From the NCBI RefSeq assembly GCF_000003815.2, contig NC_049995.1, positions 16,304,187-16,368,186 on the forward strand: DNA of 64,000 nucleotides, given 5' to 3'. A program made the translations under genes and the position numbers. This document shows positions 3,166-51,500 of this stretch, piece by piece; within the stretch, counting starts at the first letter, position 1; each line of letters opens with the position of its first letter. This stretch comes from Branchiostoma floridae (taxonomy: Eukaryota > Chordata > Leptocardii > Amphioxiformes > Branchiostomatidae). The notes below the pieces were generated by a model. The model saw only the letters and a program-made list of their open reading frames with translations, was not told the DNA's origin and did not search any database.

Positions 3166-3173
3166 TAGAGTAG

Positions 3174-9404: not shown

Positions 9405-9673
9405 AAAACAGAGAGCGAGCAACCTTGATTTGTAAATTGAATCTCCGCATTTCATTTAGGCCACGGTCGCAAGTACACCTTTGCCCGTCAGTGATGTAAC
9501 CTCAGCCTGGCCACAAATTTGTCCCGGTGGACTGACGGATACCGGGGCACGCCTTTTCTAAAAATTCACTGCTCTTTCAAAAGCGCTTTAACAACATGTA
9601 ATTACAGTTGAAGCCATTGAATATAACTCTTCTTAAACTTTTCCTTCTTTTCCGTTTCAGTACAACAACCAAG

Positions 9674-11877
9674 ATGGCTGCTAACTTCACCGGAAACTGG
9701 AAGCTAGTTGAGTCGCAGAATTTCGACGAATATCTGCAGGCCCTTGGTGAGTCATAATATACTTCTTTCACATCATAAAGTCCCAGGTATAACATAAACC
9801 AGTCTATATAACAGTTCTTGTCTAGACTTTATATTTACTTTACTTTACGTTGTTACTTGCCAAGAAAAAAATGTAAAATACACACTAAATGTCTGTTTGT
9901 GGCGTCGTCTGTGGCGTAACTGGTAGAGCGTCCTGCTCGGAATCCTAGAGGTCCCGAGTTGGATACCCGCCATGCTCCCAACGTTGTGCCTTTTGAAAGC
10001 TACACAGGCTTCCTCATTTACATGGGGAAAAAATGGGTACCTGACTTCGGTTGGGAGGTAAAAGTAAATTTTGCAATCCTGTGTATGTGGCGCTGTTAAA
10101 ATAAGTTTCTTCCTTGAGTGCAGTGCCACATTGTCCTCGTCTGTCAAAAATTGGTACCTGACTTCGGCCGGGAAGGTAAAAGTCTACCTTTACCTTCTGT
10201 CTGTACCGTGTATGTGGCACTGTTGATATAAGTTACAAACTTGAGTGCAGTGCCACATTGTCCTCGTCTGTCTGAAATGGCTACCTGACTTCGGTCGGGG
10301 AGGTGAAAGAAAAGATTACCGTTACCTTCTGTCAGTACTGTGTATGTTAAAATAAGTTACTAATAAACTTGCAGTGCCACATTGTCCTCGTCTGTCCGAA
10401 GCAAAATAGGAAAAAAAAGCTATGGGAAGTGAATGAGGCCACTTGCATCAGTGTCCACTAACCGAGACGGGGGTTGATACCAACTTCCAGGCACCTTTGA
10501 CGCTTTGCTGACGTCACAAATCCGGTCTGAGTGTATGACATAGGCTTTGGCTCATTTCAACTTGATAAGGATCAGAGGACTGATGGAATTAGCGCTTTAT
10601 TTTGTGTCGGATAGAAAGTTGTAAAATTGTAAATAATGTTGACTACCGTCACAGATGAACTTACATTCAAGAAAAAAACTCTCTGTGTCCAATCCAGGCG
10701 TGGACGCCGACAAGCGGAAGATCGTGGTGAGCGCCAGTCCTCGTCACGAGATCCAACAAGACGGTGACAGTTTCACGGTCAAGACCACCGGCCTCCAGAA
10801 CAAGACTATCAGCTTCAAGCTCGGAGGACAGTTTGAGGACGAGTTGCCTTCGGGCAAAGTCAAGGTCAGTACCATTTTTCTGATCTTTAAAATGGTTAAT
10901 ATTTAGCGTCCCCTGCTCTTAGTACAATGCTAGACTTTCTTCCAACACAAAGGTATACCATGGATCAAATTTTCAACAACCACTGACGCCGCTCCTGACC
11001 AATCACTTCAGAACGTAAACTCGCGAGAGTTAAGAACACGTGGTCTTGCGGATCTTTGACGTCAGCAGTTGGTCAAACGTGCCAGGAAGTTTGATAACAA
11101 CCAACGCAGATATTACATGTCGGTAGTATATGTCACTTGCAATCAGTTGGGCAATAATTTGCAATAAACGCATGTATAATTAATAATCTTATGTTGCATA
11201 TTATGTATCACCACAGGTCGTGCCTACTTTAGTCGGAGGCAAGCTGCATTTTGAAATCGAAGGACCGAAGGGAAAGATGACCACCGACCGGGAGATCCGC
11301 GCAGACGGCCGGCTCTACATGGTCAGTACTTCTGCGAAATGAAAAATGCCCCTGCAGTTCCAAAGCAAGCTGCTAGGGGGCCAAACATACAATACGCCTT
11401 CCGTACATCCGTAGCTATATGCCAAAAAAATCAAGACCATAGCATGTCCAGGTAAAAATGATTTTAGAAAATCGAAGTTCTGCTGCAGTACCAAGGTCAC
11501 ATAACAGGGGGCCCAGCATCGACCCTGGCCTTCCTCTTTCCAATATATACCCACATACCAAATAACATTACAATTCATTCAGATGTTCTAATGTTATGCT
11601 GACCACAAATATGCGGAAACACAAACACGCAGATAGACAGACACATAGCTAGGTACAGCAGAGAGACAGACAGACACACCAAAAACTAGACCTCCATTTT
11701 TCATAGAGGTAATAATGAGAAAAATTAAGATTCTATATAGTCTTCCTCGCTCAGTTTACTGATCAAACATCGTTTTGTCACAGCAGACTATAAATCTGTT
11801 GTTTTTGTTTCCATGATTGCCAGGTGATGACGGCTGGGAACGGGACCACCTGCACCAGGATCTTCGCCAGGGAGTAA
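9674..11877 (+). CDS. Intracellular lipid-binding protein (FABP/CRABP family), gene 1
   Basis: Coding exons 9674-9746, 10698-10864, 11217-11321 and 11824-11877 (phases 1, 0, 0) join to 132 aa. The start is ATG after ACAACAACCAAG; the exon begins at 9661 after TTTTCCGTTTCAG. The N-terminus FTGNWKLVESQNFDEYLQAL fits the FABP signature. Later landmarks are EIQQDGDSF, FEDELPSGKVK, GGKLHFEIEGP and the C-terminal TCTRIFARE, where R-x-Y of the ligand carboxylate site is R-x-F. Exon sizes are those of the ten-stranded beta-barrel FABP/CRABP family, so it is a cytosolic carrier of fatty acids, retinoids or similar ligands; the ligand cannot be told. TATA promoter, noncoding first exon, GT-repeat intron 1. 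A polyadenylation signal is likely at 12364. Confidence 0.92.
9903..9990 (+). mobile_element. tRNA-derived SINE head in intron 2 of gene 1
   Basis: GTGGCGTAACTGGTAGAGCG resembles an A box and GAGTTGGATACCC a B box; CCCAACGTTGTGCCTTTT follows as in the SINE at 8121. Anticodon and acceptor stems do not fold as a functional tRNA. Confidence 0.6.
10036..10400 (+). repeat. ~120-bp tandem repeat, three units
   Basis: Each unit runs from GTACCTGACTTCGG (or CTACCTGACTTCGG) to CAGTGCCACATTGTCCTCGT. Units start near 10036, 10153 and 10281. They follow a SINE head directly and may be its expanded body. Confidence 0.8.
11330..11520. repeat. Dispersed repeat in intron 4 of gene 1
   Basis: Contains TGCAGTTCCAAAGCAAGC, GACCATAGCATGTCCAG and AAGTTCTGCTGCAGTACCA. 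The same blocks in the same order occur at 30830-30985, so this is an interspersed repeat of unknown class. Confidence 0.6.
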
Positions 11878-13187: not shown

Positions 13188-13767
13188 CGAGGGGCGTTCA
13201 ATAAGTAATAACTCTGACCCACTTCCAGTTGTCTGATCTAAATGAAATTTGGCATGTGTAACGATTCATATCTCTATAGTTTATGTTGCAAAAAAGCCAG
13301 CTCTGAACTAATTGTGGTTTCTGATTTACTGGTGTTTGAACTGAGTTAGGTGTGAAATGGACCAGGTGTGAAAAAGAGCCAGCCGAGTGTCGCGCAGTGA
13401 TCCGGTTTTTGTATTTGAAAGGACTCACACCAAAGGAGACTTTTGATGAAATGAAAGAAACTTATGGTGATGATGCCCCATCATATGACCTTGTAAAACG
13501 CTGGCGTCCTGAATTCAAACATAGCCGGAAGTCTATGGAAACAGTTCCCAGAGCTGGTCGTTCCTCTTCTGCCATTGATGAGGCATCTGTTGGAGGACCA
13601 ACCTGGGGTGTCCTACAAAAACGGTGTCCAGAGCTGCATCAAACGATGGAAGAAATGCACAACTCTGGGTGGTTCCTATGAAGAGAAAGACTAATAACTG
13701 TGCCAAGTTTCATTAATCTCCTGCTATGGGAAATGAGTCAGAGTTATTACTTATTGAATGCCCCTCG
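13188..13767 (+). mobile_element. Mariner element with internal deletion (MITE)
   Basis: Inverted 31-bp ends: CGAGGGGCGTTCAATAAGTA to the left and its near-perfect inverse at 13737-13767. Between them an open frame (from about 13360) encodes the N-terminal helix-turn-helix of a mariner transposase (AVIRFLYLKGLTPKETFDEM, then DLVKRWRPEFK). After about 13598, in a different frame, comes the normal C-terminus (VSYKNGVQSCIKRW...EEKD-stop at 13691-13693). The catalytic DDD/E core is missing, so the copy cannot transpose by itself but keeps ends and DNA-binding region. Confidence 0.85.
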
Positions 13768-17486: not shown

Positions 17487-18632
17487 TAAACACAATTCCG
17501 GCGGTCACATCTATTAAATTCATCGCCTTGAAAAATATACGTCTGAAGACTAGTATGATCTTGTATCTTAACTGTGTATACGGGGTGAGGGTAGTGGACT
17601 AGAGATCGCTCAAACACAGTCTGTGTTTCAATAAGACTTAAGTTATGTTAGTTTAGGTTATTTATGTAGGAACCTTTTTTTCTGTAAAGATTGAGGCGTT
17701 TTCAACTAGAAAATCCTCAAGAATTCCCCACTATTCAATCGTAATGCACCAGATTATCTATAGTGCTTTAGCCCCAAATCGTCGACACAACAATTACTGA
17801 AAACTGGTTCTTCCACATTCTCCAAAGTAAGTCTGTCAGTCATGACAATCTTTCCCCAATCTCTTTCCGAATGATTACGTCTTTTCAATAGAAAATGGCA
17901 ATTACAGGTTAATTAAGGTGACCGAATGCAAAATACTAACATTACATAGATCTATTACTATTGTCGTGGATGCCATTGTAAGCACGATATATTCGCTATT
18001 CTATACAATTTATATATTGTTAGTCATTATTATCCTTTGTAAAATTCCATGGTAAAAATCTGTTGTCCTTGTCTCTGTCAACAGGGCTAGCCCTTTGTAA
18101 TAGCCACAGGGTATTTGGACAGCCCTGGCTGTGTGCGCTGAACAGCCAAACTGATAAATAATATATTAACAGGTCTATCCATACAATCATTCTAGGCCCT
18201 ACTTAAAACCTATACAATGCAAACAGTCAGTCAATATTGTAGGAGTCTTATGCAAATGTTTAGTTGCCCAGTCGGTCATGGACCTCAAGAGATTTTTTTG
18301 AAAATCACAATCGCCATGACTATTGACAGGAACACACTGTCAATGGTGAAGAACAGTATTCCTATTGACAGGATGTGCTGCAATTTGATTCTTATTGACA
18401 AGAGCATCGTGTCAACTCGCCTCGGCGAATCACAATAACCAAATACTTACTTTAAGAATCATCCCATATTTAGCTCCTTTTAATGTATTTTGATAGAATA
18501 AAAATATAGTTATATAGATTCAGCACATGCGACATTTCTCAAACTCAACTTGAAACATCACAAGATGTTCCTTTCCGTTTTTATGTCATAACGTGACGTC
18601 ATTTCCGTTTCAGGACAACAACCAATTGCAAG

Positions 18633-21323
18633 ATGGCTGTGAACTTCACCGGAAACTGGAAGCATGTCGAGTCGGAGAACTTCGACGACTATCTGAAGGC
18701 CATGGGTGAGTAACAAGATACTTCTTACACATCACGGAGTCTCTCAATAAAATGGCTCACGGTTTCAGGTGCGCATGCGAGGTCAAAGGTTAAAGTCCAC
18801 AACTTGTTAACAGTTCTTGTAACTGGCTGGACAATTCTTGATACATATCTGAAGGGAAATATTGGCGAAAAAATCATTCATGCTTCGAATGAGAACACAA
18901 TCAAACTACAATAATATCCAGTATCAATACTGAGGGTCTGCATGGGGGGTCCCGACAACGATTTACGCTGAATTCAGAAGAATCCCCTATGCATTACGCT
19001 AGATCAAGGAAGGCAATTACGCTAAATTTGGTCGCCTCACTACGAATTACGTAGATAAGATGGTTTTCCCTACGAATTACGGGAAATGAAAATAGGCTGC
19101 CTACGCCTTACGGAAAAGAGCATGCAGACCCTTAGGCAATATATCCCAGTTCACGATCCCAAGCTTTTATCACCTTACCGACCAACAAAAATCAATCTTC
19201 TTGCTTAAGTCGTCCAACCCCCATATATATAAGAAAATGTTGGACAATTCATCTTCCACTGCTTACGGAAAAGAAGTCAAACCCATCAAATAGCTTAAGT
19301 AGAAATAGATTTAGTTTAGACGTTATTATTATTCCCTTTTGATTTATCTATGAATATCATTTCCCTTCTTTGTATGCAATTAGCCTTCGGGCATGAATTT
19401 GCAATAAAGAGTATTATTATTATTGTATTTAACTGGTACTATGCAGCTCCTATTTCCCGTCTCACCCTAGCTTTACATTCCTCAAATAGTAACTACTTAT
19501 AAGAGCCTCCGGCTAGTTGAGTAGCCCTGGCTGTATTTCTCTTTATACAGCCAAATAAATCAAATAGAATGAAACTCATGAGAGGGAGAAATCCCTACAG
19601 ATTCATGCTAAACAAATGAAACTTGACCTGTGTGTACTTGACCTGTGTGTACTTGACCTGTGTGTACTTGCTATGTGTGTACTTGACCTGTGTGTACTTC
19701 CTATGTGTGCCAAATACAGGTATTAACTTTGCCATGAGAAAGATCGCGAATGGTATCACCCCGAAGTTGGAGATCCAACAAGATGGCGACAGCTTCAAGG
19801 TCAAGACCATCGGCGCCAAGACCAAGGAGGTCAGCTTCAAGGTCGGGGAGGCGTTCGAGGACGAGATGCAAGTCGGCAAAGTCAAGGTCATTGCCTTTTT
19901 CTTTTAGATAATCAAGTTAAGCACTGCTCTTAGTGACCAGGCCAATGGCCTAGTCGGAAGGGTTCACCTTGCAGTTGTAGAGATTGAAATGTCTTTTTCT
20001 TTAACCCTATATCTGATGACATCATCAAATTAGCATAATTTATGCATATATAATCATGAAAGATTTGCTAAATAACATAAGCTTTTATTTATGTAACAAA
20101 ATAGCAGTAACATAGCACATAAACGTGAAAAATACATTGTTAGAACCGAAATTAGCGATTTTTGGCAAAACTGCCTGTCAACAAACAGTTGCCATAGCAA
20201 CAACAAAGAAAGGAAAATTTGTTAAACTTCGTAAAATTGTTGCCAACAATATTTTAGGAAAACTAACGAAATTTGGTGGCTCCAGCGTAAGCCGTTCTGG
20301 CGTTATAGGACATCAAAGTTGGCGTAGGCCTCAAAAGCCCCCCCCCCCCCGTCTGAATAGGGTTAAATATCGTTCACCTGGGGCTAACACTAACCTTCAT
20401 AAACTTCTCACACGATTTTACGTTACAAATTATTACTGTCCAAGCAGAAGTTGATGGGCGACATCGTGACTTTTTTCTTACATGCCGTATTCTTTTGTTA
20501 GCTGACATAAAAAAACGGCATATAAGAAAAAGGTCACGATTTTCCCCATCAACCTCTGCTTATATGCTATAACAGGTCGTGCCGACGTAATAGTGGAAGG
20601 CAAGCTGCATGGCAACAAGATTTTAGTTTCATATTTTATGTTATAACAGGTTGTGCCTAGTCTAGTGGACGGCAAGCTACATTTCGACATCGAGGGGCCG
20701 AAGCAGAAGCTGGTGATCGAACGAGAAATCCGGTCTGACGGAAGGTTGTACCAGGTCAGCTGACTTTGTCTTTGACTCTGAATCTATTATTTAAGAGGGT
20801 ATCTCACCGGACTTAAGTACTTTTGTGACTTTTCTTCGTTCTAACTTGGATTTCTGTTACCATTGACTTTGAACGGAAATACCATGCTAGACATATAACT
20901 GAAATACATCAAAACACGAAAGGATTGTTTATTATTGAATTCATTGAGCGCTTGTTCAAATCACGCAACCGCAGCCAACGTGAGTGGTAGCGCTGGCAAG
21001 GGACAGGAAATTTTCGATCTGACTGATAAAAAATTCTAGAATCATTCCCGACATTTTGTCTGTCATTCTGCTGCAAGAGGGAATTGCGATTGTACAATGT
21101 ATATCTGATATGTACTTTCAACGTCATATTCTAGCTATTATACAATGCGTAATTAGACAATGATGCTGAGAATATCAGTGTTCTGAGACATTGTTATCTG
21201 GGGTGATTCTACAAGAACGCTTGTGGTTTCAACAGACTATAAAACTGTTGTTTTTTCACTGTTGCCTAGGTGATGAAGGCAGGAGACGGGACCACCTGCA
21301 CCAGGATCTTCGCCAAAGAGTAA
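18633..21323 (+). CDS. Intracellular lipid-binding protein (FABP/CRABP family), gene 2
   Basis: Coding exons 18633-18705, 19720-19886, 20650-20754 and 21270-21323 give 132 aa with the same sizes and phases as gene 1. The second exon starts at 18614 after TTTCCGTTTCAG; ATG follows AATTGCAAG. Landmarks: FTGNWKHVESENFDDYL, FAMRKIANG, EIQQDGDSFKVKT, GKLHFDIEGP, REIRSDGRLYQ, and C-terminal TCTRIFAKE. Closest visible relative is gene 3 (shared NWKHVESENF and FA.RKIA). The third-exon acceptor has a decoy 74 nt upstream (see 20576). TATA promoter with IR1 sites; likely polyadenylation at 22024. Ligand unknown. Confidence 0.92.
19236..19415 (+). mobile_element. LINE 3' tail in intron 2 of gene 2
   Basis: GGAAAAGAAGTCAAACCC followed by a tail ending GCAATTAGCCTTCGGGCATG and AATTTGCAATAAA. 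The same tail occurs at 23660-23822 and 53672-53872, and in inverse at 48155-48530, 60640-61210 and 61610-61700, where the latter region still encodes an RT C-terminus. Confidence 0.65.
20442..20561. repeat. Long imperfect hairpin before exon 3 of gene 2
   Basis: A 47-nt arm (AAGCAGAAGTTGATGGGC...CATGCCGT, 20442-20488) is inverted at 20515-20561 with about six mismatches and a 26-nt loop. The hairpin ends 14 nt before the decoy acceptor. It may be a small foldback element. Confidence 0.8.
20576..20610 (+). pseudogene. Decoy partial copy of exon 3 of gene 2
   Basis: GTCGTGCCGACG...GGCAAGCTGCAT copies the first 35 nt of the true exon (20650-20684), with its own TATAACAG acceptor. It reads into TAA TAG after four codons, so use of this acceptor would truncate the protein. 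Confidence 0.75.
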
Positions 21324-27512: not shown

Positions 27513-30500
27513 CTACCGTTTTCCTCCAGGGGGAGCACTTTTGGCCCTGGTCTGCAGTCTGGTCTCAAGCCACTCTTCGTAATCCTCTGTGGGCATCTCA
27601 ATAATCTTCTCTCGAACAAACTGTGAAGAAATAGGTTTTGTGAATACACAAATTTATATCAAAACTGGAGGTTCTGCAGCAATACTTGTAAAGCCACAAG
27701 GGGACCCAATGTCAAACTTGACCTTTGTTTCTAGACTCCAACTCAACTTCAAAGTATCTTAAGGATCCATCCAAAGCTTCATGACATATACTGTAACACA
27801 CCACACTTATCGAAAAGAGGGGTCCTTCCCGGTGTAAGTGGATTAATTAATTCTGTTTGGATATGCAGCTTGTGTACTCTTCATGTACAAACCTGGTGTG
27901 GCTTAGTTTGGTTTACCACCTTTGCAATACAAACAAACAAACCTCTATAGCAGAGCAGATGTCAGGTGCGGGTTAATTATAACAACATGGAGGGGTGTAC
28001 ATGTACCTCTATAGCAGAGCTGATGTCAGGTGAGGTTAATTATAACAACATGGAGGGGTGTACATGTACCTCTATAGCAGAGCTGATGTCAGGTGAGGGT
28101 TAATTATAACAACATGGAGGGGTGTACATGTACCTCTATAGCAGAGCTGATGTCAGGTGCACACAGCTCCCAGGGCCGGAGAGTGGAGAGAACCTTCAGG
28201 AACTGGTGAGGGCTGTACCGTCTGCTGATGCCGTCTAGCTGCACCTGGGCAGGGGAATGCTGGGTTAAGTATCTTATTTCAAGAAGAAGGGGAGACATGA
28301 TCCAGCTGGTAGGTCTTGAAAGAATCCCGCTAGAGTCTTTCTTAACACTTCAAGTTGGAAGCACAACAAGAGATCAGTTTCAAACTCAAGGTCCCAACAG
28401 CTTAAGCGCAGCCAGGAGTCCAGCCTTGTTCACGGGTAGCAACCTTTGAGAGCAAACCAAAGAGAGCAAGGCTGGACTCAAAGCTACCACAGCTTGTGAT
28501 TTGAGCTAAAACTTAACCAAGTTTAAGACCAGATTGTACAGTTACTTGGAGAATGAGAAGTACATCACATGAGAAGTGCAAGAGTGAAGACTATTCTACA
28601 GGCCTCAATGCCTTCCTTTCTGGAGACAGTATTCACTATTTCAAGCAATGAAAGTTGACAGAAGAATATACGACTGTACACTCTGATTTCATAGCTCCTG
28701 GCTTTTCACTTATGTTACAACCAAAAAAGGAGTAAAATAAAAGTAATTTAGTATTCAGTCATTTGTACTTACAATGCCGTATCTGGAGATTTTCTCCAGG
28801 ATGTTGAGGCAGAATCTGTCGTCCCTGATGTTTGGTGGCAGGTTCTCTTGTAGGTCCTTATACCTGTGCAGAAAAGTATGCAGTTATGCATGGTGGAACA
28901 CAGGTATATAGGCTGGGGTAGAAATGTACAATCATGATGACGATACTTCATAAAAAAGCTCAGAACTGAAGTCTTGCACATCCAACAGTTTCATTAGGAA
29001 TATTAGTAAATACTTAACTTATTTTTACAACATCAAAAGTAGCTTCAGTTAGTACTGCCTTGAGGAAGGTACCCAATAGCTGAGAAAAATAATGTTGTAG
29101 GAACATGTATTTTACTTTTGGCTGTTTTAAAAGAACACTCATCGTTCTTGATAAGGTGTCAAGTTAGTACATGTACCAAACAAACAAACCAACCAGACCG
29201 CATGAAAATTCTGTCTGCAAAGGGTTTTGTACCCTTCCTACTCCTTTCTCTCAAAACAAAACAAACAAACAAACAAACAAACCCACCAGGGAGCGTGGAC
29301 CTTCTGTTTCCGCAGAGTTTCGTACTCTTCCTGCTCTCTTCTCTCCTCCTCCTGAACAGCTGTCTTCATCTTGTCCACCGCTCGGAAGAAACTGGTGGGG
29401 TGGCCCAGGGTGCGGAACTTGGTCTCACACTTCTGTTTTCTTTTCCTGAAGGAAGGAAACAGCAAAAAATCAGCTTTCATCATGTCTGTTGTTATGAGTT
29501 AAGAGCTGCAAAGTACAGAACTTGGTTTCATAATGTTTGCTTCCTTTTCCTGATTTCTGATGATGATGATGATGTGCATACCAGTCAGACATCTTACAGA
29601 GACATTAAACCTATAAGTGGTGCCCAAGATGCAAACCAATTGGTATGACACTTCTGTTTTCTTTTCTTGAAGAAGGGAAGAAAAGAATCAATTCCAATTC
29701 TGCCAATTTTATCTGTACCTTTCCACTGTGCAAGGATGTTAAGTCAAATCTGACAGTGGCCTTTCTACCAAGCAATGTTAGATACCCAATCCACCCCAAA
29801 GTTGACAGCACCTCCAAACTGAAGCCATGACTGGCTAGTAAAGTTCAATTTTCCCCAAACCTGTCCAGAGCCTCCAGGTTGTCGTGTAGAGTGAGAGCCT
29901 TCTCGGCAGAAACGTCGGCAAACCTCTGTCTCATCTCCAGCGGCAGGCCTTGCTGTCTCACGCTCGGGAAGTCATGGTAATACTAATAACTTAAGGTAAT
30001 ATCACACGTACCTGTTCAAAGCTTCCAGGTTATCGTGTAGCGTGAGAGCCTTCTCAGCGGAGACGTCGGCAAACCTCTGTCTCATCTCCAAACATTAGGG
30101 AATACTACAACTTCAAAGGTAATATCACACGTACCTGTTCAAAGCTTCCAGGTTATCGTGTAGCGTGAGAGCCTTCTCAGCTGAGACGTCGGCAAACCTC
30201 TGTCTCATCTCCAAACATTAGGGAATACTACAACTTCAAAGGTAATATCACACGTACCTGTCCAGAGCTTCCAGGTTGTCGTGTAGAGTGAGGGCCTTCT
30301 CGGCTGAGACGTCGGCAAACCTCTGTCTCATCTCCAATGGCAGGCCCTGCTGTCTCACACTCGGGAAGTCATGATAATACTAATAACTTAAGGTAATATC
30401 ACACGTACCTGTTCAGAGCTTCCAGGTTGTCGTGTAGAGGCAGTCCTTACTCACTCACTCACTTACTCACTCTATACTTAAAGGTAATATCACACGTACC

Positions 30501-36500: not shown

Positions 36501-39500
36501 CATATGTATAAGGGTAAGCTCATCAATATCTATAAGCAGGGCAGTCAGGAACTAAGGGTGACGGTTGAGAAAACAGGGTACATCCAGACAGACGGTTTCG
36601 CCATTGGATGTTCCTGCATAGGAGGATGACAACAGTTCACACAGCATTTTGCCTTACTTGAGGTCCCAGCATGAGGAAATGGGCATCATGACACTCGGTC
36701 CCTCCAGCGACATGGACTCCAGCAGCCAGTTCAGCGCACACAGCTGACGGAAAAAACTCTCCCTGCAACAAGAAGAAAATTGGGTTAAGACAATACGACC
36801 ATTGACTTGTTACTGACAGCATAAATTGTCATGTGCATTAAGCAAATAGCCAATAACATCCACTATGATCATAATTCCACCAGGTGCCATGATACCGCCA
36901 CCTCAAAAAACGTTAGTATAGAGGTCTTCCCAAGATTGTCTTGAACACCGAATGTTAAATATCCTATATGTAATACAATTCAGATATTTAGGTGTTCAGA
37001 AGACAATCTTGGGAAAGCCTCTATTACAACGTTTTTTTGAGGTGGCAGTATAATGGCACCTGGTGGAATTATGCGAATGTATGTTATCTATCCTTGAAAT
37101 ATTTTCTGTGTTTTTCTTTTGTGAAGTTGAACATATCTTTACTGTCTTTGATGCATTGACTTTCTAATTGGGCAGTTAGATCAAATAAGAATTACCTTTT
37201 TTGTAACTTATGCTGGCAAATTAACTGTTACAAATTGTTGATGACAGTATAAGATGATACTGGAACTGTACTAAATGAAGTCTAAAATAGTTTGCTTTTC
37301 AAGCTGCATTTTTTACAAACTGACATAACCGCTAATAACATGGACAATAGAAGTCAATCATTTTGATAAGACTGACATTGTACTCCACATTACTATGTTG
37401 AATATATGACATAATCATAATCATACTCCAAGCCCCTAACACCCCCAATAGTAGAGTGGTATGTTCTTACAGTTCATTTGGTGTTGCCGGTTGGGCAGCG
37501 TTAATGTTGGAATAACAGGGGGTGAAGGGTCGGGGAGGGGCGCTGTGCGGTCCCTTCTTCTTCTTGGTGCTGACGGCAGAACGTGTGCGAACGGAGGGCG
37601 CAAACTCGGACTGGGCAGCCAGGTCTATTGTTCTGTATAGGAAAGGGAAAGAAGGAAAATTATGAGCAATTTAGTCAATACATAGCAAAATCTAGATGTT
37701 ACTCGCCCTATCATTCACTGTTGCTTTAGCTAACAGTGTCTTGTTCTTGTTCTATCATATGTTGAACAAACTGTTGTCTACAATCATGCCTTGCAATCAA
37801 CGTAAAAAGACAGCATACTTCTTTTAGAATATTCTACAAAATGGTGATAACTTTACATGTTGAAGACAAATGACAATAGTAACTACATTGTACACAATGT
37901 AGTAACAGAGTCAGACTTAGTTGTGACTTCTACATTTCTTTACAGTTCTTTCTTTTAAACTATACCATGTGCTAATATGGTGCCTACCCTGCATGGCTGG
38001 TAGCAGCACTTTTTGTCCTCGCACTACTCCCCTCGGGAACTTCTGTTTGGAAAAACCTGGGAAAGGGACAACACACAGAAACTTGGATTAATCGAACTGA
38101 AATACATGAAACTGGGAAAAGGGTTTCTTGAGAAAGACAAATAAAGTCGAAACCGGTCGAATTTCGGAGTATCAGTCGTCATCGTTCCATACCTTATTGA
38201 TATATGTGAAAGGGCTAAGCTTTGAAAAAACATCTGATCCTAAGGGAGGGTCTTTTTAGCGAATGCCCACAAACGCCCACTCTAGAGAAGTCCGCGCTCC
38301 ACGAATCTCATTTTTTTGGCTTGGAATATGTCCACGTTGTGCTCCCATGTATTAATCCTGAGTTTCAAGTCAATCCATTGACCCGGAGTGACATAAATCA
38401 AAGTTTCGATTCTCGATGGTCTTTTTAGCGAACGCCCAGCAAAATGTCTTTTTAGCGAATGCCCACTATATCCACAAAAATATAGGCCGTCGCGCAACGA
38501 CACCTAAACCTACCACCACAAACATGTTCAAGATGGTGTCCCATTAATGTGTACGGAGTTTCCGTGCTTTACAAGCATTTTAAGTCCCTGTTTTTGGTCA
38601 AAATGTACGGCGACGATACTACCATACTTTACTATAGCAATTCAAAATGGCGGGCACTAGTCATGTGACCTTCTTGCGGGACTGTTCTATAAGTATCGCG
38701 GGAGGGACTGTTGTAGCATAGCTTCTCATACAACCATTTTAGAGTGAATTCTGAACAAGATTTTCATTTCATAGTGCTATCATCTGACTGATATTGACAA
38801 TGTGGTCATTTTTTCTGTGCTATTATTACCCAGGTTTGAGGAACTTAGTGCAAATATGGATATTGATTCACCTCAGTGCCCAATTAATGTACAAAAGGCT
38901 CAGACACATTAGTGTTATAAACCTGAATAGGGGCAGGTAACCAATACTAGAAAAACATAGCTATTTATTATTAACAATACTATTTACATTATGATAATAA
39001 CTCTTCACCAAACTGGACTTTTGTTATCTTTATTTATCACAGAAACATTGTTACAATGAGGATTTGATTAGATGAGTATCTGTTACAGTGTGTACAAACT
39101 TATTATATTTCAGCCATACATAGTATGGTGAAATATATTGTATTCGTAATGTTTCTTTCTTTCTTTCTTTCTTTCTTTCTCCTGTCAAATCTTCAAAGTG
39201 ATTCATCTCCGCCGTTCCTGGACCGAATGACCTGAAATTTGGCACAGGGGTAGAATGGGCCAATACCTTGATGCTTTTTTCTCAGTTTTTTCATATCTGC
39301 CTCTAAAATGATTTTATTGAGATTTTTTGGTCAATTTTAGACCAAACCTGTATATTTTGGCCCCTGTACCCTGGTATTACAACCAAATGAGCTGAAATTT
39401 GACAGAGATGTGCCTTGATAATGCCCCCATATAAATTCAATAACACTTTTGGTGTACAGTACAACAAAATGCTTATTTTTGCGATTTTTTGACCAATTTT

Positions 39501-42500
39501 TGACCAAAAAAGGACACTTTTGGCTCCTGTACCTTGATATTGCAACCGAATGAGCTGAAATTTGACACAGATGTGCCTTGATAATCCCTTCATATAAATT
39601 CAATAACACCTTTGGTGTACAGTGCAACAAAATGCTTATTTTTGCGATTTTTGGCCAATTTTTGACCAAAAAAGGACACTTTTGGCTCCTGTACCCTGGC
39701 ATTACAATTAAATGACCTGAAATTTGGTATAGATAGGCATTAGATACTTGGTAACAAGATTCAAGTAAAATTTTTGACATAAACAACTTTAAAATGATTA
39801 ATTTTGGCACTTTTCTGAGGGGAAATTTGTTTCTTTTGGCCTCCTGACGTGACCTTCCGTGACCCCGCACAGAGCCACACCTGTGCGCGTCAGCCGGAGA
39901 GTTAATTGAATCGAAGACCTAGCCAATCAGCGAAGAGGAGGCCAAAGGCTAATTAATATTCATAAGCGGGGCCTCATGATCCCGTATATAGCAGTGTTCC
40001 CGCCAGGGGGAGCGAAGCCCGCCTAAGGCTCTCGCATTTTAGACTATTCAGAAGGACTTATATTGTATCAGTTCTTAGGGGCATATCTATGATAATCGCA
40101 GCAGTCACTTAACTTCTCTTCAGGAGTTTAGCGTAACACTATTTCAGGTCAAACCGTCAAAGGCAACTAAAAACAAACTATAACGTTACTGAGTTCAACA
40201 GTACTTATAACTTGTTATCCGAAGTTGAAACGCTAGCGATGGTATTTTCGTTGCGCTGTTAGCTCCGTGCGACTGTTGTTGACGGTCTTATAACGGTATA
40301 TTTTGCACCCCTGTACCCTGGTATGAGTAACATTTGGTATAGATAGGCATAAGATAGTTGGTAAAATGATCCAAGTAAAATTTTTGGCATAAAGTACTGT
40401 AAAAGGCTTAATTACAGCACTTTTTTTAGGGGAAATTGGTTTTCTTTCGTTCTCCATGCCATGACCTTTCGGACGTTCACCCCACAGAACCGACATCTGC
40501 ACCTGCGTCTAGCCGGCAGGAAGAGTTAATTCAATTAATGGTTCAGCCAATCAGCGAAGAGGAAAGCGAAGGCTAATTAATATTCATAAGCGGGACCACA
40601 CAATACGTTAACTTGAAGACTCAGGACGTACAGACTTCTCGCCAGGATTTTTTCAAAGCGTCGGACAGGGGTCCGGGGTCCGCCGAATGTCCCTGGCGGG
40701 GTCCAGGGGCAGGGCCACTGTGGGGGGGGGGGGGGGACCCAGGTGGGCGAAGCCCCCCAGGAAGCTCTTGCATTTTAGACTATTGAGAAGGCTTCTTTTA
40801 TCAGTTTTTTTAGGGCCATATCTACGATAATCGTAGCAGTCACTTACTTCTCTTCAGCAGTTTGACTTTAAAATATTTCAGGTCAAAGCTTCAAAGACAA
40901 CTAAAACCTCATAAACAACAAACTTTACTTAGCTCAACAGTATACAAAAATATTGTACGGGTTGCCATCCTTAGTTGAAGCGCTTATTTATAGCGCTAGT
41001 ATCTTCGCTGCGCCGTTAGCCGCCGTGCGACTTTTGTTGACGGTCTGATATCCCTACGTCGCCGCCTCGCTGATATTCCCACGGACATGTTTCAAGAAAA
41101 ATACCCAGCAAAAAACGCTGTTCTGCGTCAAATTCTATTCTATAAAACATGTGGGACTCAGTGTTACAGTCTAAATATTTTGTAGAAGCACCGCTGTAGG
41201 AAAGAAGGTCCAAGCAATGTAAAACATCACGTAGCATGAAGTTCGCTGTCAACTGGCACACAGCACATGACTGTTTGAAACTCTAAGTCTAATCAACAGC
41301 CGTGTTTGATTGATAGCCGGCGGTCCTTTGATGAAGTCGGCGAAAGGTGCGTTAGTTAGAAAATCTGCGTTTAGTTTTGATACGTAATTATAAGTTATAC
41401 AGTGGCGAGAATGATTATTTTCTCATCAATATTTCTCTTCAGAATTATTTGAACTTAATTGTACATCTAAACAATTGGCTTACCTGTGCAATGTTTATAT
41501 GATTAATGATCAGTGTACTGAAATCATGTGTAACGTATGGCTCCTAGTCAATAGATCAGCATTTTCTCTATAGTGACCACCTGTCTATAGTGGCCACATT
41601 TCCTAGTGCTGTTGTTGTTTGACATAAACTTTGAACATTTAAATTGTAAGTAACTTTAAACTGCCAGAGTTTCAGCCCAATAAAACACTCTCAGCGCCAG
41701 GGTATGAACAGACTGACCAGACAGACGAAAATAAATCCTCGAACAAGGTTCAATCGTATCTTCCGGGTCTGGCAGGAAGTTGTTAAACTAAAATAAGAAT
41801 AGGCTCGATGGCTGATTGCATACAAAGTAAAACAGTTGAACAGTTTTACAGCTTGAAGAAAACAAACGCTCCTACAGTACCTACGCACCTGCTTGATAAT
41901 TATTAAATCGTATGCCCTACTTGAATAAAAAAAGTTCACTGCAATAATAAATGTACCCACATCACAAGGAGCTTATACTTTTTTAAACTTACACCTAGTT
42001 ATCGTACTGAAAATTGTTAATGACATTACATGAAGTCATTCAACAATTTTCAGTCATGATGAAAATTTTCTGAATGGAAGGTGTGATTATTGTCATTTTC
42101 TGAAAAATAGAAGCAAGCTCTGTTTTTACCTGGAATCAATTCACAATACCACTCCACTTTGGGGGATAATGTACTGTTAAGAGGATGTTCCATTTTTGCG
42201 CAGGGGTGATTTGGAACAGTCCAATGTTGCGTGGGAAGGGGTATGGCTGAAATATGCTGTATTTGCTCTTAAGCAAATGTCGGCCTTTCTAGTTTCAAAT
42301 ACAAAAATGTATTTCGTTTCACTTCCTAAATATTTTAAAAGTATTGGAAGAAGCAAGGAGTTGACACATAAACAATATTAATTGCATTATTTATGTGCAG
42401 TAAAATGTGACCACATGCTATCAATAGCCTAATAAAATGTTGGAACATGGCACAAGCGGGCTCCTCTTCTGAGTACAGAAAGGAAATGTTTTATAACATT

Positions 42501-45500
42501 TAGTTATGACGTAGAAAATTTCAATTGTAAAATGTACCTTTATTAACATTTACAAACAAATTGTTTTTTTCTCTTCTTAATAAATGACAACAATACAGGT
42601 AAGTAAGGTGTGTTTCCTTTTATAACAGGCCAGGTAAGACGCCGTACAGGTAAGTAAGGTGTGTTTTCTTTTATAGCAGACCAGGTAAGACACCTTACAG
42701 GTGAGTAAGGTGTGTTTCCTTGACTACAGACTAGGTAAGACACCTTACAGGTGAGCAACGTGTATTTCCTTTCATTACAGACCAGGTAAGACACCGTACA
42801 GGTGAGTAACGTGTATTTCCTTTGATTACAGACCAGGTAAGACACCGTACAGGTGAGTAAGGTGTGTTTCCTTGACTACAGACTAGGTAAGACACCGTAC
42901 AGGTGAGTAACGTGTATTTCCTTTGATTACAGACCAGGTAAGACACCATACAGGTGAGTAAGGTGTGTTTCCTTTTATAACAGACTAGGTAAGACACCGT
43001 ATAGGTAAGTAACGTGTATTTCCTTTCAGTACAGACTAGGTAAGACACCGTACAGGTGAGTAAGGTGTGTTTCTTTTATAACAGAATAGGTAAGACACCG
43101 TACATGTGAATAACGTGTATTTCCTTTGATTACAGACCAGGTAAGACACCGTACAGGTGAGTAACGTGTATTTCCTTTGATAACAGGCCAGGTAAGACAC
43201 CATACAGGTAAGTAAGGTGTGTTTCTTTTTATAACAGACCAGGTATGACACCGTGCATGTGAATAACGTGTATTTCCTTTGATTACAGACCAGGTAAGAC
43301 ACCGTACAGGTGAGTAAGGTGTGTTTCCTTGACTACAGACTAGGTAAGACACCTTACAGGTGAGCAACGTGTATTTCCTTTCATTACAGACCAGGTAAGA
43401 CACCGTACAGGTGAGTAACGTGTATTTCCTTTGATTACAGACCAGGTAAGACAGCGTACATGTGAGTAAGGTGTGTTTCCTTGACTACAGACTAGGTAAG
43501 ACACCGTACAGGTGAGTAACGTGTATTTCCTTTGATTACAGACCAGGTAAGACACCATACAGGTGAGTAAGGTGTGTTTCCTTTTATAACAGACTAGGTA
43601 AGACACCGTACAGGTAAGTAACGTGTATTTCCTTTCAGTACAGACCAGGTAAGACACCGTACAGGTAAGTAACGTGTATTTCCTTTGATAACAGGCCAGG
43701 TAAGACACCATACAGGTAAGTAAGGTGTGTTTCTTTTTATAACAGACCAGGTATGACACCGTGCATGTGAGTAACGTGTATTTCCTTTGATTACAGACCA
43801 GGTAAGACACCATACAGGTGAGTAACGTGTATTTCCTTTCATTACAGACTAGGTAAGACACCGCACAGGTGAGTAAGGTGTGTTTCCTTTGTCTATAGAC
43901 CAGATAGGGTATTACACAGGTGAGTAAGGCGTCTTTCCTTTGCCTATATACCATATAGGCCATTATACAGGTGAGTGAGGCGTCTTTCCTTTGCCTATAG
44001 ACCAGATAGGGTATTATGCAGGTGAGTAAAGCAACTTTCCTTTGCCTGTAGACCAGGAAGGGTATTATACAGGTAAGTTAGGTGTCTTTCCTTCGCCTAT
44101 ATACCAGATGGGGCATTATACAGGTAATTAAGGTGTCTTTCCCTTGCCTATATACCAGATAGGCCATTATACAGGTGAATAAGGTGTCTTTCCTTTGCCT
44201 ATAGACCAGATAAGCCATTAAACAGGTGAGTAAGGTGTCTTTCCTTTGCCTATAGACCAGATAGGCCATTATACAGGTAAGTAAGATGTCTTTACTTTGC
44301 CTATAGACCAGACAGGGTATTATACAGGTGAGTAAAGCGTCTTTCCTTTGCCTATAGACCAGATAGGTATTAAACAGGTGAGTAAAGCAACTTACTTACC
44401 TGTATAATGCCCTATCTGGTCTAAAGGCAAAGGAAAGACGCCTTACTCATCTGTGCGGTGTCTTACCTGGTCTGTAATCAAAGGAAATACACGTTACTCA
44501 CCTGTACGGTGTCTTACCTGGTCTGTTATAAAAGGAAACGTACCTTACTTACCTGTATGGTGTCTTACCTGGCCTGTTATCAAAGGAAATACACGTTACT
44601 CACCTGTATGTTGTCTTACCTGGTCTGTAATCAAAGGAAATACACGTTACTCACCTGTACGGTGTCTTACCTAGTCTGTAGTCAAGGAAACACACCTTAC
44701 TCACCTGTACGGTGTCTTACCTGGTCTGTAATCAAAGGAAATACACGTTACTCACCTGTACGGTGTCTTACCTGGTCTGTAATGAAAGGAAATACACGTT
44801 GCTCACCTGTAAGGTGTCTTACCTAGTCTGTAGTCAAGGAAACACACCTTACTCACCTGTACGGTGTCTTACCTGGTCTGCTATAAAAGGAAACACACCT
44901 TACTTACCTGTACGGTGTCTTACCTGGCCTGTTATAAAAGGAAACACACCTTACTTACCTGTATTGTTGTCATTTATTAAGAAGAGAAAAAAACAATTTG
45001 TTTGTAAATGTTAATAAAGGTACATTTTACAATTGAAATTTTCTACGTCATAACTAAATGTTATAAAACATTTCCTTTCTGTACTCAGAAGAGGAGCCCG
45101 CTTGTGCCATGTTCCAACATTTTATTAGGCTATTGATAGCATGTGGTCACATTTTACTGCACATAAATAATGCAATTAATATTGTTTATGTGTCAACTTC
45201 TTCCAATACTTTTAAAATATTTAGGAAGTGAAACGAAATACATTTTTGTATTTGAAATAAGTTTGTACACACTGTAACAGATAATTACTCATCTAATCAA
45301 ATCCTCATTGTAACAATGTTTCTGTGATAAATAAAGATAAGAAAAGTCCAGTTTGGTGAAGAGTTATTATTATAATGTAAATAGTATTGTTAATAATAAA
45401 TAGCTATGTTTTTCTAGTATTGGTTACCTGCCCCTATTCAGGTTTATAACACTAATGTGTCTGAGCCTTTTGTACATTAATTGGGCACTGAGGTGAATCA

Positions 45501-48500
45501 ATATCCAAATTTGCACTAAGTTCCTCAAACCTGGGTAATAATAGCACAGAAAAAATGACCACATTGTCAATATCAGTCAGATGATAGCACTATGAAATGA
45601 AAATCTTGTTCAGAATTCACTCTAAAATGGTTGTATGAGAAGCTATGCTACAACAGTCCCTCCCGCGATACTTATAAAACAGTCCCGCAAGAAGGTCACA
45701 TGACTAGTGCCCGCCATTTTGAATTGCTATAGTTAAAGTATGGTAGTATCGTCGCCGTACATTTTGACCAAAAACAGGGACTTAAAATGCTTGTAAAGCA
45801 CGGATACTCCGTACACATCAATGGGACACCATCTTGAACATGTTTGTGGCGGTAGGTTTAGGTGTCGTTGCGCGACGGCCTATATTTTTGTGGATATAGT
45901 GGGCATTCGCTAAAAAGACATTTTGCTGGGCGTTCGCTAAAAAGACCATCGAGAATCGAAAACTTTGATTCATGTCACTTCGGGTCAATGGATTGACTTG
46001 AAACTCAGGATTAATACATGGGAGCACAACGTGGACATATTCCAAGCAAAAAAAATGAGATTCGTGCAGCGCGGACTTCTCTAGAGTGGGCGTTTGTGGG
46101 CATTCGCTAAAAAGACCATGCGTGATCCTAATACACAATGTTTATGTTTTGATTTCAGTCATTCTGTATTAAATCCGCTGGCCTTCCAACTGAAACTATC
46201 TTTTTTTGTAGTAAAGTAGATGTTAACGCACTTAAGAAAACTTACAGTCAACAACAAAACCTTAAGACATTCACACCACTTGTAATTGCAACGTTAATTG
46301 GCTTGGCATTAGCTATAGGGTATGCATACTTTTGTAATGTTAACTGTAACGGGGGCCGCCCTAAGACGGTCCCGGTCGTAAGACGGAACGGATTATTTGC
46401 TGATCTTATTATCCATAAGTACACCGTGTTTGTTGTCACTGACTATGCTGATTACAAAGGTAAATAAACCAAGTCCATGCACACAGCTTTAATTTGCATT
46501 CCAAGTATACTTTAACATATTTACTTCATGTTTAAAAAAAAAACAGAATTCTAACAGTAATGTTGACAGTGCTGAATCACTGCGGTCACCGGCCTCTGCG
46601 TATTGGCGGCTCGTGTCGCTAACTATACGAACTTTTTCAAGCAGTCACACAACTGAAATGATACACATAAATAAAGCTCCATAAAACACTATGAATATGG
46701 GTCTTCAAATGTCTGTTGAGTAGAAAAGCAACCAAAAGGAAGTGACATAAACATTGCCACCATTGTACTCCCAAGGGAGTGTGACCGTGAAGGTGACAGA
46801 CTAGAGAACGCTCCAAAGATTTATTTGACTGTAACAAATGATTCGTACTGTCTATGAAAATAAGACTTGATAGAGAGATGTAGATGATATTTTCATATAA
46901 TCAGACCGAGTTTTGTTGATGTTAGCGGTGTCTTTTTTTCGTAATGGTTTTTTTTAGTCGGGCATTCACAATCAGTGCATTCAGCCCATTGCCCGTAAAA
47001 ACATGAGCTGGATTGTTCTAGGTACATCCTTCCTCATGTGAGACAAGAAGTACATACAGTCACGATTTTACTGTCAAAAGAAAGCTGAAATATCATATTA
47101 TTAATTTTTTTCTGTGTACTTAAATTTACCTCTTACTTCTGAAGAGAGCAAAATGTAAATAAAAGCGTACCGAGTTAGGCACACTGTCCAGCGTAGAACA
47201 AAATTGAAAGGTTACATACACGAAATTGTCTCACAGTGTTTGCCGCTTGTAACATGCAGCGCGAAAGGTTCATGAACCACATGAATGCATTTCTTATTCA
47301 AGTATGTTGTTCAAATCTATGTGTAAAAAATTCAGTCATCAAAAATTTGACCACTCTCAGGCAACTAGCGATGGAGCGCCATGAGTTTGAGCGCAAGAAA
47401 AAGCGTACCGTGTTGGGGCACCTCCCGTTATGTAAACTTTCTTCCAAGCACTTTAAGAATTTTACTAAATGAACTCTCATGCAGCATGCGGATAGCAGCA
47501 ATTAGTTCCTACTATAGTGCAAAAATTGTGCACGCTTTTATTATAGACAGAAAGTGTCTTGCCGAATTTCAAACCAATCAAATTATGTTTATTTTAACGT
47601 TAAATCTGTGAATGCTAAGTATCTTTAAAAAACATCCAAGCACTATTAGAATGTTCCCAGATAAATTCCCATGATTAGAAGTTGTTAAAGCAATTCCTAC
47701 ACAACCATTACGGAGAAGATGTCAGAAGTTACGTCAAACCAAGCTGATTAATGTTCACATTAATTACAGTTAACGATGAGATCGGCCTACATCTATGTCC
47801 TTGGACCCTATAAATTACACCATAATTAGTTTAGACTTTGGAACTTTTCATTGCTAATGTGGTCCCCGCCTAACAACAGGCTTTCACCCAATGCAGGTTG
47901 CTCAGTGGTAACATTGTAATGAGTTTCTCTCTGAATATTTATATTACTAGGTAATGGCAGTGTTTTAGTCAGCCTTATTTTTTTTCCGTCCCCTGGATTT
48001 TTAACTTGGAAATGCTGTTGGGCTGTCTCCAGAAAGCAGCATGTGCCATTTTTAAAGGTCTGTGGTATGACTCGGCCGGGGATCGAACTCACGACCTACT
48101 GAATGCAAGGAGAACACTGTATACAGCTTGGCAATTGTACCGGTTATAACTTTACTTAAAGAAAAACAGTTTATTGCAAATTCTAATTGACCGAGGGCTA
48201 ATTGTAAGTGACAAAAAATGACAGACAAATAATGGTAAACAGTATAGTTCAAGCAACTACTCTTGACTTCGTTTAGTCTAACTCAAAGATGTAACTTAGT
48301 TGGTTTGACTTTTTTTCCTCAGAGACAGTGGAAGACAAAAGATTGCACCTTTTCTATAATGTGTAGGTTTTGTGACATTAAAAGGAGAGTAGTTTTCTTT
48401 TTGTCTGTAAACGTGGAGATACATGTATTAGGATAGAGTTTGGTGGCTTCTTTAAAGAGCTTGTTTCTCTTTTGATCATAGAAGGGGCAGTTTGACATAA

Positions 48501-51500
48501 GATGTGTTTCGTCTTCTACCATCATAACGCACAGTATTTACAACTTCTTTCCCACACAGGTAACACAATAATTTAGTATCTTAAGTCTGACTGTAAACAT
48601 TACTTATTATAATAAGAAGCCCCTTAAAGTCTTACTTTCCCAAGTCCTCATCCTTTGACAAGTCGTCATCAGACTCATCATCATCATCCGAGGATCCGGC
48701 TGCAGGCGGTTGCCATGACGATAGTTTCTCCATCTCCTGCCTGCGGCTTTGCTCCGCCTGGGCGTCTTCATGAGCCGCCTCCTCATCGTTCATCAACCAG
48801 AACAGGCCTTTTCCCAGCCGGACGGACTGGATTAGAGACCTGGGGATTATATCACAAGGATTATAGCAGATTGGATTAAGGACTTAAAAGGGATTTCCAC
48901 AAAGATAAGTTTGAATTCTAGACAAAGAGATCATCTTTGGGCATCTTCGCAACCTGCCTCCTCATCGTCCATCAGTCGGAACAGACCCTTCCCCAGCCGA
49001 ACAGACTGGATTAAGGACCTAGGGATTATCAGATGGATTAGAATAGATTGGGTTAAGGACCTAAGGGATTACCACAAAGATCAGTTCAAATTCTAGACAT
49101 AGAGATCATCTCAGAGATTAGTCCTCGTGAGCTGTCTCTTCATCATTCATCAGTCGGAACAGACCTTTCCCCAACCGGACGGACTGGATTAGAGACCTAG
49201 GGATTATCATATGCAGAGATTAGGTCAGATTCAGGACATAGATCCAGAGATCATCTCAGAGATCAGGTCAAATCCAGGAAACACAGTCCTCATGAGACCG
49301 TGAACAGACCCTTCCCCAACCGGACAGACTGGATCAGGGACCTAGGGATTATATCACAATGATTATAGCAGATTGGATTAAGGACTTAAGGGATTTCCAC
49401 AAAGATTAGCTTGAATTCTAGACATAGAGATCATCTTTGGGCATCTTCACGAGCTGCCTCCTTATCGTCCATCAGTCGGAACAGACCCTTCCCCAGCCGA
49501 ACGGACTGGATTAAGGACCTAGGGATTATCACATGGATTAGAATAGATTGGGTTAAGGACCTAAGGGATTACCACAAAGATCAGTTCAAATTCTAGACAT
49601 AGAGATCATCTCAGAGATTAGTCCTCGTGAGCTGTCTCTTCATCATTCATCAGTCGGAACAGACCTTTCCTCAGTCGGACGGACTGGATTAGGGACCTAG
49701 GGATTAGAACAGGGATTAGAACAGACTGGATTAAGGACCTTAAGTGATCTTCATAGACAGCCAGGAAACTTATAACCTCTTTTTCCAGAGGCAGGGTCAC
49801 TAACCACAGGACCACGCAAGCTACTGCATCAAAGATCTAAGGCTGTATCAAAGTCTACCACAAAGACTCTTAAGAATTGCCAGTATTGACAAGTTCTGGG
49901 ACCAAAATGAGACAGGTAGATGCTAGGAGAAAATGAGAAAAACATGTCTTACCTCTGTTTCTTGAACTGACTGTTGAGTGTGTTCAGCTCCTTTTTCTGT
50001 TTCCTCAGCACAAACTGGGCAGCAGTCTAAAGTGAAGACAAAGAAACTTGAATGTGCTTGCCAATGGATATCAATAATACAAACCACTGCTCTAACATTA
50101 TATAAAACATGTATTTTCTATTACATCACTTTGACAATGTTTAGTAGCTTAACAACATTGCTAAGCTACTAAACATCTATTTCAAATTGATGTTATACTT
50201 AGTAATATTCAGTCATACCTCTCACCCATACCACTTAATAAAACAACTTCTGTCCCCTATTCCTTGCTCTAGCATTCATAAAAGTTAAGCATGGGGGAAT
50301 AAGCATAGATGATATTCCTCCTCCCAACTATAAACGTCAGTGAAAAGATATCGATAACAATAATTATCATAAACTCCAAAACCTCAGGTAGAACTCTTGG
50401 GATATCCTGTCCTGCCATGTTGATGTCCATGTCACACACTAAGCTTAAAGATCTCATTCTGATATACGATCCACAGTGTAGCCTCTTATGCCGGATATGT
50501 CTTATAGGATTTCCCAGGTGAAGAGCAGACCTGGTGCTTCAGTGTGTAACACCATGCAGAAGGGCTGGATTAAGATGGAACTGGGGGATATGATAGCATG
50601 TAGAACAAATAATATTACTTCAGTGCTTCAGTGTGTAAGACCATGAAGAAGGAGGGGATTACGATGGAACTGGGGGATATGATAGCATCGCTCTGTGAAA
50701 CAAAATTTCTTGGCCCTTCCGAACAGCCCAACCTTGTTTTCCCCAATGTTATTCAAGAGATGAAATAAAATGCATCGCTATGTGGATCAAATTAGTATCA
50801 CATCCCTTGAACACCCCTTCCCCAACCTCACCTTTATTTTATCCCCCCCATTGGCATTGGTAAGAAAACTACGGGAGCTAAGGAAGCTCCCAATGAACAG
50901 GACAAATTGGAGAGAGATGAACTTAAAGAAATTAAAGACTGATTACAGCTGCAGGGTGTCCAGACCACTGCAGCAGCAGAACACAGTGGACTAGCAACTT
51001 CTCTGCTGCTGCAGCAGCTGTTCCTCGGCATCCTTTACCAGCTGCTGATCAACAAACAAACAAACAAACAAACAAACACTCCGTACCCTTCTCTGCTGCT
51101 GTTGCAGTTGTTCCTCTGCATCCTTCACCAGCTGCTGTTCCCTCTCCTCCTCTTCCTCCCTCCTCTTGTCTGCCAATGCTCGGTCAACAGCCTCTTGCTG
51201 GAATTAGAAGTATAAATTTTAAGCCTTTCTGATAAAATGGACACTGTACAACATAGCGATACTTTCTAAATTTGAAGACTACGTTGTAAATTCTAACCTT
51301 AAAAATTCAGGAGACTCCCTTCTTAGCCTGGGTGAAAATTCTTATAATTTTACTTATTGGGGAGAAGCAGTAACTAAAGAATTAGCATCCAGGCTACTTC
51401 CTTTCAACCAATAGCAACAAAAAATTGGATTGGTTACCAAAGAAATTTGATTTAGTTTAAGACACATAGAAAGTGTCTTCATCCATACATTCTGTACTCA

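Follow-up and report, generated by a model that had tools for sequence, protein, structure and literature searches.

A splice-motif tandem array in Branchiostoma floridae and its probable place inside a Mutator-like foldback transposon

An intron of a predicted minus-strand gene in the lancelet Branchiostoma floridae contains a minisatellite that reads like a string of splice sites. Are these motifs more than an accident of base composition, what kind of sequence carries them, and are they of any use to it? We addressed these questions computationally, using a stretch of 64,000 nucleotides (hereafter the window) and the genome to which it belongs.

Splice motifs of the 51-bp array

A first-pass annotation had placed the array at 42595..44970 and described it as running in both orientations; both statements are correct, the coordinates to within a few bases. 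The main array (42594-44391, + strand) holds 35 complete 51-bp units plus a partial unit at the centre, and abuts an inverted array (44392-44966, - strand) of 11 complete units and one partial one, giving 46 complete units in total. Tandem Repeats Finder reports the 51-bp period at 42594-44362 and 44428-44963. The main array consists of unit types A/B up to 43863 and of type C from 43864 on. The unit consensus is TACAG/GTGAGTAACGTGTATTTCCTTTGATTACAG/ACCAG/GTAAGACACCG, with 5 nt between the acceptor and the next donor. The strict donor CAG/GTRAGT is present in 35 of the 46 complete units; the initial description, that almost every unit has it, was therefore generous in its wording, although it does hold for most. 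AGGT stands at the place of this first donor (donor 1) in 41 of the 46 and a YAG acceptor is found in 43, while the core of the second donor (AGGTAAG) is present in 33, none of which are among the 11 divergent type-C units.

We scored splice sites using a weight matrix, applied to the arrays, the window and shuffled sequences. In the consensus unit, the best donor scores 12.9, the ceiling of this matrix; the second donor scores 10.9 and the acceptor 8.9. Counting each array plus 30 bp of flank, the sense strands of both arrays contain 104 donors scoring at least 6 (80 of them at least 9) and 54 acceptors scoring at least 6; the first-pass annotation had put the array at nearly 100 donor-like and about 48 acceptor-like sites. 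The opposite strands contain only 4 donors and 5 acceptors at this threshold. Donors of at least 9 occur about 31 times per kb in the + array vs 0.34-0.38 in the remaining window. Acceptors of at least 9 occur about 0.7 times per kb in the window and are thus not rare.

When the unit was shuffled 800,000 times with its dinucleotide counts preserved, the score of its best donor was reached in 1627 shuffles, that of the acceptor in 2255 and that of the second donor in 34; best donor and acceptor were reached together in 14. Not one of 40,356 background 51-mers scores as high as the best donor, and 1446 score as high as the acceptor. Since shuffled and background 51-mers rarely match the unit, the splice motifs are real, and it is confirmed that strong donors and acceptors make up the unit, beyond chance for its composition. 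The comparison with composition-matched arrays that had been proposed as a check on these sites thus comes out in their favour. Among the exons predicted in the window, 7 donors score between 5.9 and 11.9 and 8 acceptors between 6.7 and 12.4, both sites of exon 48635-48840 and the donor of 36657-36762 being left out; this is a biased yardstick because these exons were picked with the same matrix. As the array multiplies one founding unit, the effective sample is a single unit, and we caution that a chance find is possible at genome scale, given the many minisatellites where such a unit could turn up. A recursive-splicing (ratchet) site was considered and rejected, as the acceptor at the array edge is too weak (-1.3) despite an adjoining donor of 12.6.

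A palindromic element and its dispersed copies

The array lies inside a palindromic element spanning 38244-46122, or about 4.7 kb once a later insertion is removed. Its order is outer domain (OUT, about 860 bp), ARM (about 300 bp), array, inverted array, ARM and OUT. The left OUT (38244-39104, + strand) starts with GGGAG followed by GGTCTTTTTAGCGAATGCCC, the right OUT (45259-46122, - strand) ends with GGGCATTCGCTAAAAAGACC followed by ATGCG, and 45256-46117 is an inverted copy of 38249-39104 with 98% identity. A terminal-motif core is found at 38250, 38419 and 38446 in the left OUT and at 45906, 45933 and 46103 in the right; TTCGCTAAAAAGAC occurs three times per outer domain. The left ARM (42293-42593, + strand) equals the right ARM (44967-45258, - strand) save for one 7-nt indel. 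A strong acceptor near 45089 reads outward through the right ARM, with its mirror copy near 42468 on the - strand of the left ARM, and this exit acceptor scores 10.6 on both strands. The unit is not derived from ARM or OUT; its similarity to them is not above that of shuffles (193/200 shuffles score equally high).

On both sides, the element is bordered by the 9-bp target-site duplication TGATCCTAA (38235-38243 and 46123-46131), an exact match whose two copies sit exactly 5 bp beyond the inverted repeat. In 200,000 trials with random flank pairs, any shared 9-mer was found 352 times and a symmetric 9-mer 33 times. The left half of the element is split by a secondary insertion of 3188 bp (39105-42292). 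Since the OUT-ARM junction is unbroken in 52 of the 56 strands searched at 28 related loci, this segment is a later insertion. It has a 15-bp inverted repeat at or near its ends (ATATTTCAGCCATAC at 39105-39119, GTATGGCTGAAATAT at 42241-42255), and its right end also shows CTAG and a small hairpin; with the T-rich target, this is reminiscent of Helentron-type ends. No Rfam family reaches its gathering score within the 64-kb window.

To see how widespread the unit is, as had been suggested earlier, we searched the B. floridae genome (513 Mb, 431 contigs) for similarity to the array. This gave 205 candidate places, of which 40 were scored, with at least 176 matches. Among the matches listed, most form opposite-strand pairs 1-2 kb apart and, by our own count, at least 39 array loci exist besides the window copy; the array family is thus dispersed. 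We compared 20 of these 39 loci in detail. OUT, ARM and arrays in both orientations are present at all 20, although incomplete at some: L010 is without one ARM, while L018, L019, L022, L023, L025 and L027 are in pieces, and the OUT sequence, found at every locus, is truncated or fragmented at some. The CGCAT terminus, allowing up to two mismatches, has 135 matches in the genome vs 0 for a reversed control. From these we took a second sample of eight loci, none among the array loci, and seven of them have OUT, ARM and array units. The eighth (L029) shares merely 83 bp of the end; followed over 15.4 kb, it has no second end, and its longest open frame is 540 residues.

Across the 28 loci, target-site duplications are exact over 9 bp at 16 and over 10 bp at 2, have one mismatch at 2 and are absent at 8, the last counting against the insertion reading. 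The 20 array-picked loci account for 11 exact 9-bp, 2 exact 10-bp and one single-mismatch 9-bp duplication, with none at 6; the terminus-picked loci account for 5 exact 9-bp duplications and one with a mismatch, with none at 2. One GGGAG and one CGCAT end are found at 16/20 array-picked and 6/8 terminus-picked loci. Compared with the window copy, the mean substitution level is 1.6%, in OUT as well as in ARM.

We also compared how units are distributed within 17 copies, leaving out 4 of 21 that are without both clear ends. The number of units per arm is strongly variable. Type A/B units adjoin the ARMs in very variable number, while type-C units, often about ten, are central and mostly on one side (L020 has none). 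The array is longer on the GGGAG side in 13 of the 17 copies. In L011 and L021, the type-C block is on the CGCAT side, although in most copies it is on the GGGAG side; recombination between the arms could have flipped the middle. The exit-acceptor motif is present in 40 of the 42 arms of the 21 copies, 39 of these being near-identical.

Probable identity of the element and comparable known elements

We conclude that the array very probably forms the inner repeat portion of a DNA transposon of the foldback type. This transposon would be young and non-autonomous, and its superfamily is most likely Mutator (MULE). Long inverted repeats extend across most of the element, tandem repeats of variable number lie inside them, and the dispersed copies have target-site duplications, all as in foldbacks. 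The duplications also fall within the 8-11 bp given for MULEs in a survey (PMC6446971). A free-standing satellite is ruled out by the inverted repeat, the target duplications and the dispersed copies.

Although that survey saw little evidence of MULEs in chordates and was unable to confirm their transposases in B. floridae, from which they had been reported before (PMC6446971), the Pfam MULE domain occurs at 27 places in this genome (among them L037-L043), several in long open frames. Six of these places, checked with about 1.5 kb on each side, have no OUT sequence. One on C18 (L043, C18:7779000-7788900) lies beyond the edge of a partial element copy, at a distance of about 3.6 kb; this pair of matches recurs 75 kb away with identical spacing, probably reflecting a local duplication. 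No transposase with the element's ends was found among the 7 of 27 places examined, and the superfamily assignment hence rests on duplication length and architecture.

Three known elements bear comparison, by description only. Tetris of Drosophila virilis is a foldback that its authors suggest belongs to Mutator (PMC4079207). It similarly has no conserved coding sequence. Its terminal inverted repeats (TIRs) reach 1735 bp and combine inner tandem repeats with a flanking domain on the outside that measures at most 866 bp, and its target duplications are 8-10 bp. Its repeats, however, are about 220 bp long, it comes from another phylum, and the available text describes no splice-site motifs (PMC4079207). 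Tm1 of root-knot nematodes, a Mutator/Foldback family according to its authors (PMC3169594), has composite TIRs, a variable number of tandem repeats, mostly 9-bp target duplications and short non-inverted motifs at both outer ends. In contrast to the element described here, its repeats are 13-15 bp, its asymmetric ends are 7 bp rather than 5 bp, and one member codes for a putative transposase. Galileo also has long, internally repetitive inverted repeats, but is a foldback-like member of the P superfamily with a P-type transposase.

The family adds a foldback with Mutator-type features to the lancelet genome, and the striking array is accounted for as one component of these young mobile elements, one terminus of which is matched 135 times. 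We found no paper on foldbacks with inverted repeats in amphioxus, Repbase and most subscription journals being outside the search, and the family may already have a Repbase entry. On minisatellites and mirages in amphioxus, the pertinent papers were those on globins and PGBD5. Foldbacks themselves are known; what seems new here is that the inner repeats of one consist of splice-site arrays. An exact scan of a viral-contig collection, which may omit B. floridae, gave 0 matches to part of the unit.

Possible roles of the splice motifs

The host gene has a predicted exon upstream of the element's intron at 48635-48840 (- strand, edges approximate, with a weak DUF4698 match) and one downstream of the element at 36657-36762 (- strand). 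Ten peptides were predicted for it: four of them match successive parts of Pfam DUF4698, in the right order, and six match nothing relevant. The matches cover profile positions 1-48 at 48.6 kb (E 1.7e-4, under the curated cut-off), 96-131 at 36.7 kb, in the downstream exon (E 3.8e-12), 320-351 at 30.6 kb (E 0.0026, also under the cut-off) and 428-458 at 28.2 kb (E 1.3e-10). We take DUF4698 to be CCDC60. Three other tandem repeats lie at edges of exons of this gene; their units measure 64, 123 and 178 bp (27941-28159, 29993-30337 and 48760-49748, respectively). The 64-bp repeat contains 4 copies of the splice boundary, the 123-bp repeat 5 exact or 6 relaxed, and the 178-bp repeat 6. These repeats resemble the published amphioxus mirages, which are tandem repeats of splice boundaries (PMC3087553, PMC3902484; Canestro et al. 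2002, as cited).

Might the array itself be such a mirage, formed when a genuine exon-intron boundary in its host gene was duplicated in tandem? Mirages are reported from several amphioxus genes, and are likewise tandem repeats with splice signals and unstable copy number, according to two papers (PMC3087553, PMC3902484); the host gene, as shown above, has three similar repeats of its own. The units of the array do carry splice signals, but they were not seen to span a genuine boundary between exon and intron in the host gene, a search of the array for a coding exon found none, and the best matches of the unit elsewhere in the window, among the matches listed, are 12 bp long. We therefore reject a mirage of this host gene. 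Moreover, mirages duplicate a boundary in place, whereas the array lies inside a dispersed element and moves with it. A mirage is thus a most improbable explanation, although the array may still be mirage-like by origin. The earlier remark that no named satellite is built this way needs amending accordingly: amphioxus splice-boundary repeats already had a name (PMC3087553), but the array falls outside the definition of a mirage. The repeated motif could also be a transposase-binding site that merely resembles splice sites, since transposase sites have been ascribed to the inner repeats of Galileo (as told in PMC4079207). This too is unlikely. The unit's similarity to ARM and OUT, as noted, does not exceed that of shuffles, TTCGCTAAAAAGAC in the outer domains is a better candidate, and a donor and acceptor arise together too rarely in shuffled units.

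We then asked whether selection maintains the splice motifs. In the window units, the columns of donor 1, the pyrimidine tract and the AG jointly show 21 changes vs 32.5 expected (permutation 0.005), and the joint splice columns rank 1 of 51 circular shifts. The consensus of types A/B differs from that of type C at 1/20 splice columns and 10/31 others (Fisher 0.02). These results hint that the motifs may be more than passengers. Taken alone, however, donor 1 ranks 15 of 51 and donor 2 ranks 43 of 51. We extended the column test to 21 loci, keeping 736 of 2491 raw units (at most 12 mismatches); the remaining raw units we take to be alignment run-on outside the arrays. For type A/B, splice columns have 4.3-5.6 changes per column vs 7.5, with the joint set ranking 5 of 51; taken singly, donor 1 ranks 21 and donor 2 ranks 7; for type C, the joint set ranks 8 of 51 and donor 1 alone 13. 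In this set, the strict donor 1 is kept in 449/533 type A/B and 156/203 type C units, YAG in 523/533 and 133/203, and AGGTAAG in 486/533 and 0/203, respectively. The case for selection on the splice motifs is weak, suggestive at best, and it does not appear to be aimed at the donors.

These data bear on the idea that the element mimics an intron in either orientation, so that its core is spliced out and insertions into genes are tolerated. The two halves read inward as donors and the arms outward as an acceptor, and hence a transcript meets donors first and an acceptor at the exit. In each half, strong donors are nearly confined to the strand that reads inward, the exit acceptor is equally strong on both strands and present in nearly all arms, and the splice columns in the window jointly change less than expected. 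Yet acceptors are not rare in the window, the RNA would retain roughly 1 kb at either end (OUT plus some of the ARM), donor 1 alone is conserved no more than other columns, and the joint set ranks only fifth and eighth over the 21 loci. Since the family is young, a shared exit acceptor is expected anyway, and shared motifs say little. We therefore consider an intron mimic doubtful. The same low probability applies to a broader version, in which the transposon carries a palindromic splice-signal cassette that is treated as an intron, or captures U1, in both orientations; if true, transposon-level selection would maintain the array.

A role as a U1-binding array guarding intronic RNA from premature polyadenylation (telescripting) seems very unlikely. 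The best donor reaches the maximum of the weight matrix, and AATAAA occurs three times in the outward-reading OUT and ARM. However, it also occurs twice inward, both being raw counts uncorrected for A+T content, and the array travels with a transposon and is tied to no single intron. We also predicted the minimum-energy RNA fold of 42293-45258. On the gene strand, all 21 AGGTRAG cores are paired, 20 of them through long-range pairs; on the other strand, 33 of 53 are paired, again 20 through long-range pairs. With the gene-strand donor cores in a predicted hairpin, this fold speaks against free U1 binding there, and any such binding would have to precede hairpin formation.

We thus favour, less firmly than the identity of the element, that the splice motifs are passengers of the foldback. 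A Mutator-type transposase acting in trans would move the element through its OUT termini, while the inner 51-bp units would grow and shrink through unequal exchange or slippage. The splice motifs would already have been present in the founding unit, which may have been an exon-intron boundary that was captured or arose by chance, and they would have multiplied along with it without being used. In transcripts of the window copy, the arms are predicted to fold into a long hairpin covering the gene-strand donor cores. As copies differ in donor number, they form a natural series for studying how transcripts handle strong, perhaps unused donors, and they also allow a test of how double-stranded folding hides donors.

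The window contains several other features. At 1363-4196, a reverse transcriptase (RVT_1) reading frame precedes one whose weak similarity to phage integrases falls below the curated cut-off; the pair looks to us like a DIRS-type retrotransposon. An HTH_48 domain of Mos1-type transposases at 13340-13681 marks a mariner-like fragment. Exons predicted on the + strand at 9661-11321 and 18614-20754 presumably belong to two related fatty-acid-binding-protein-like genes.
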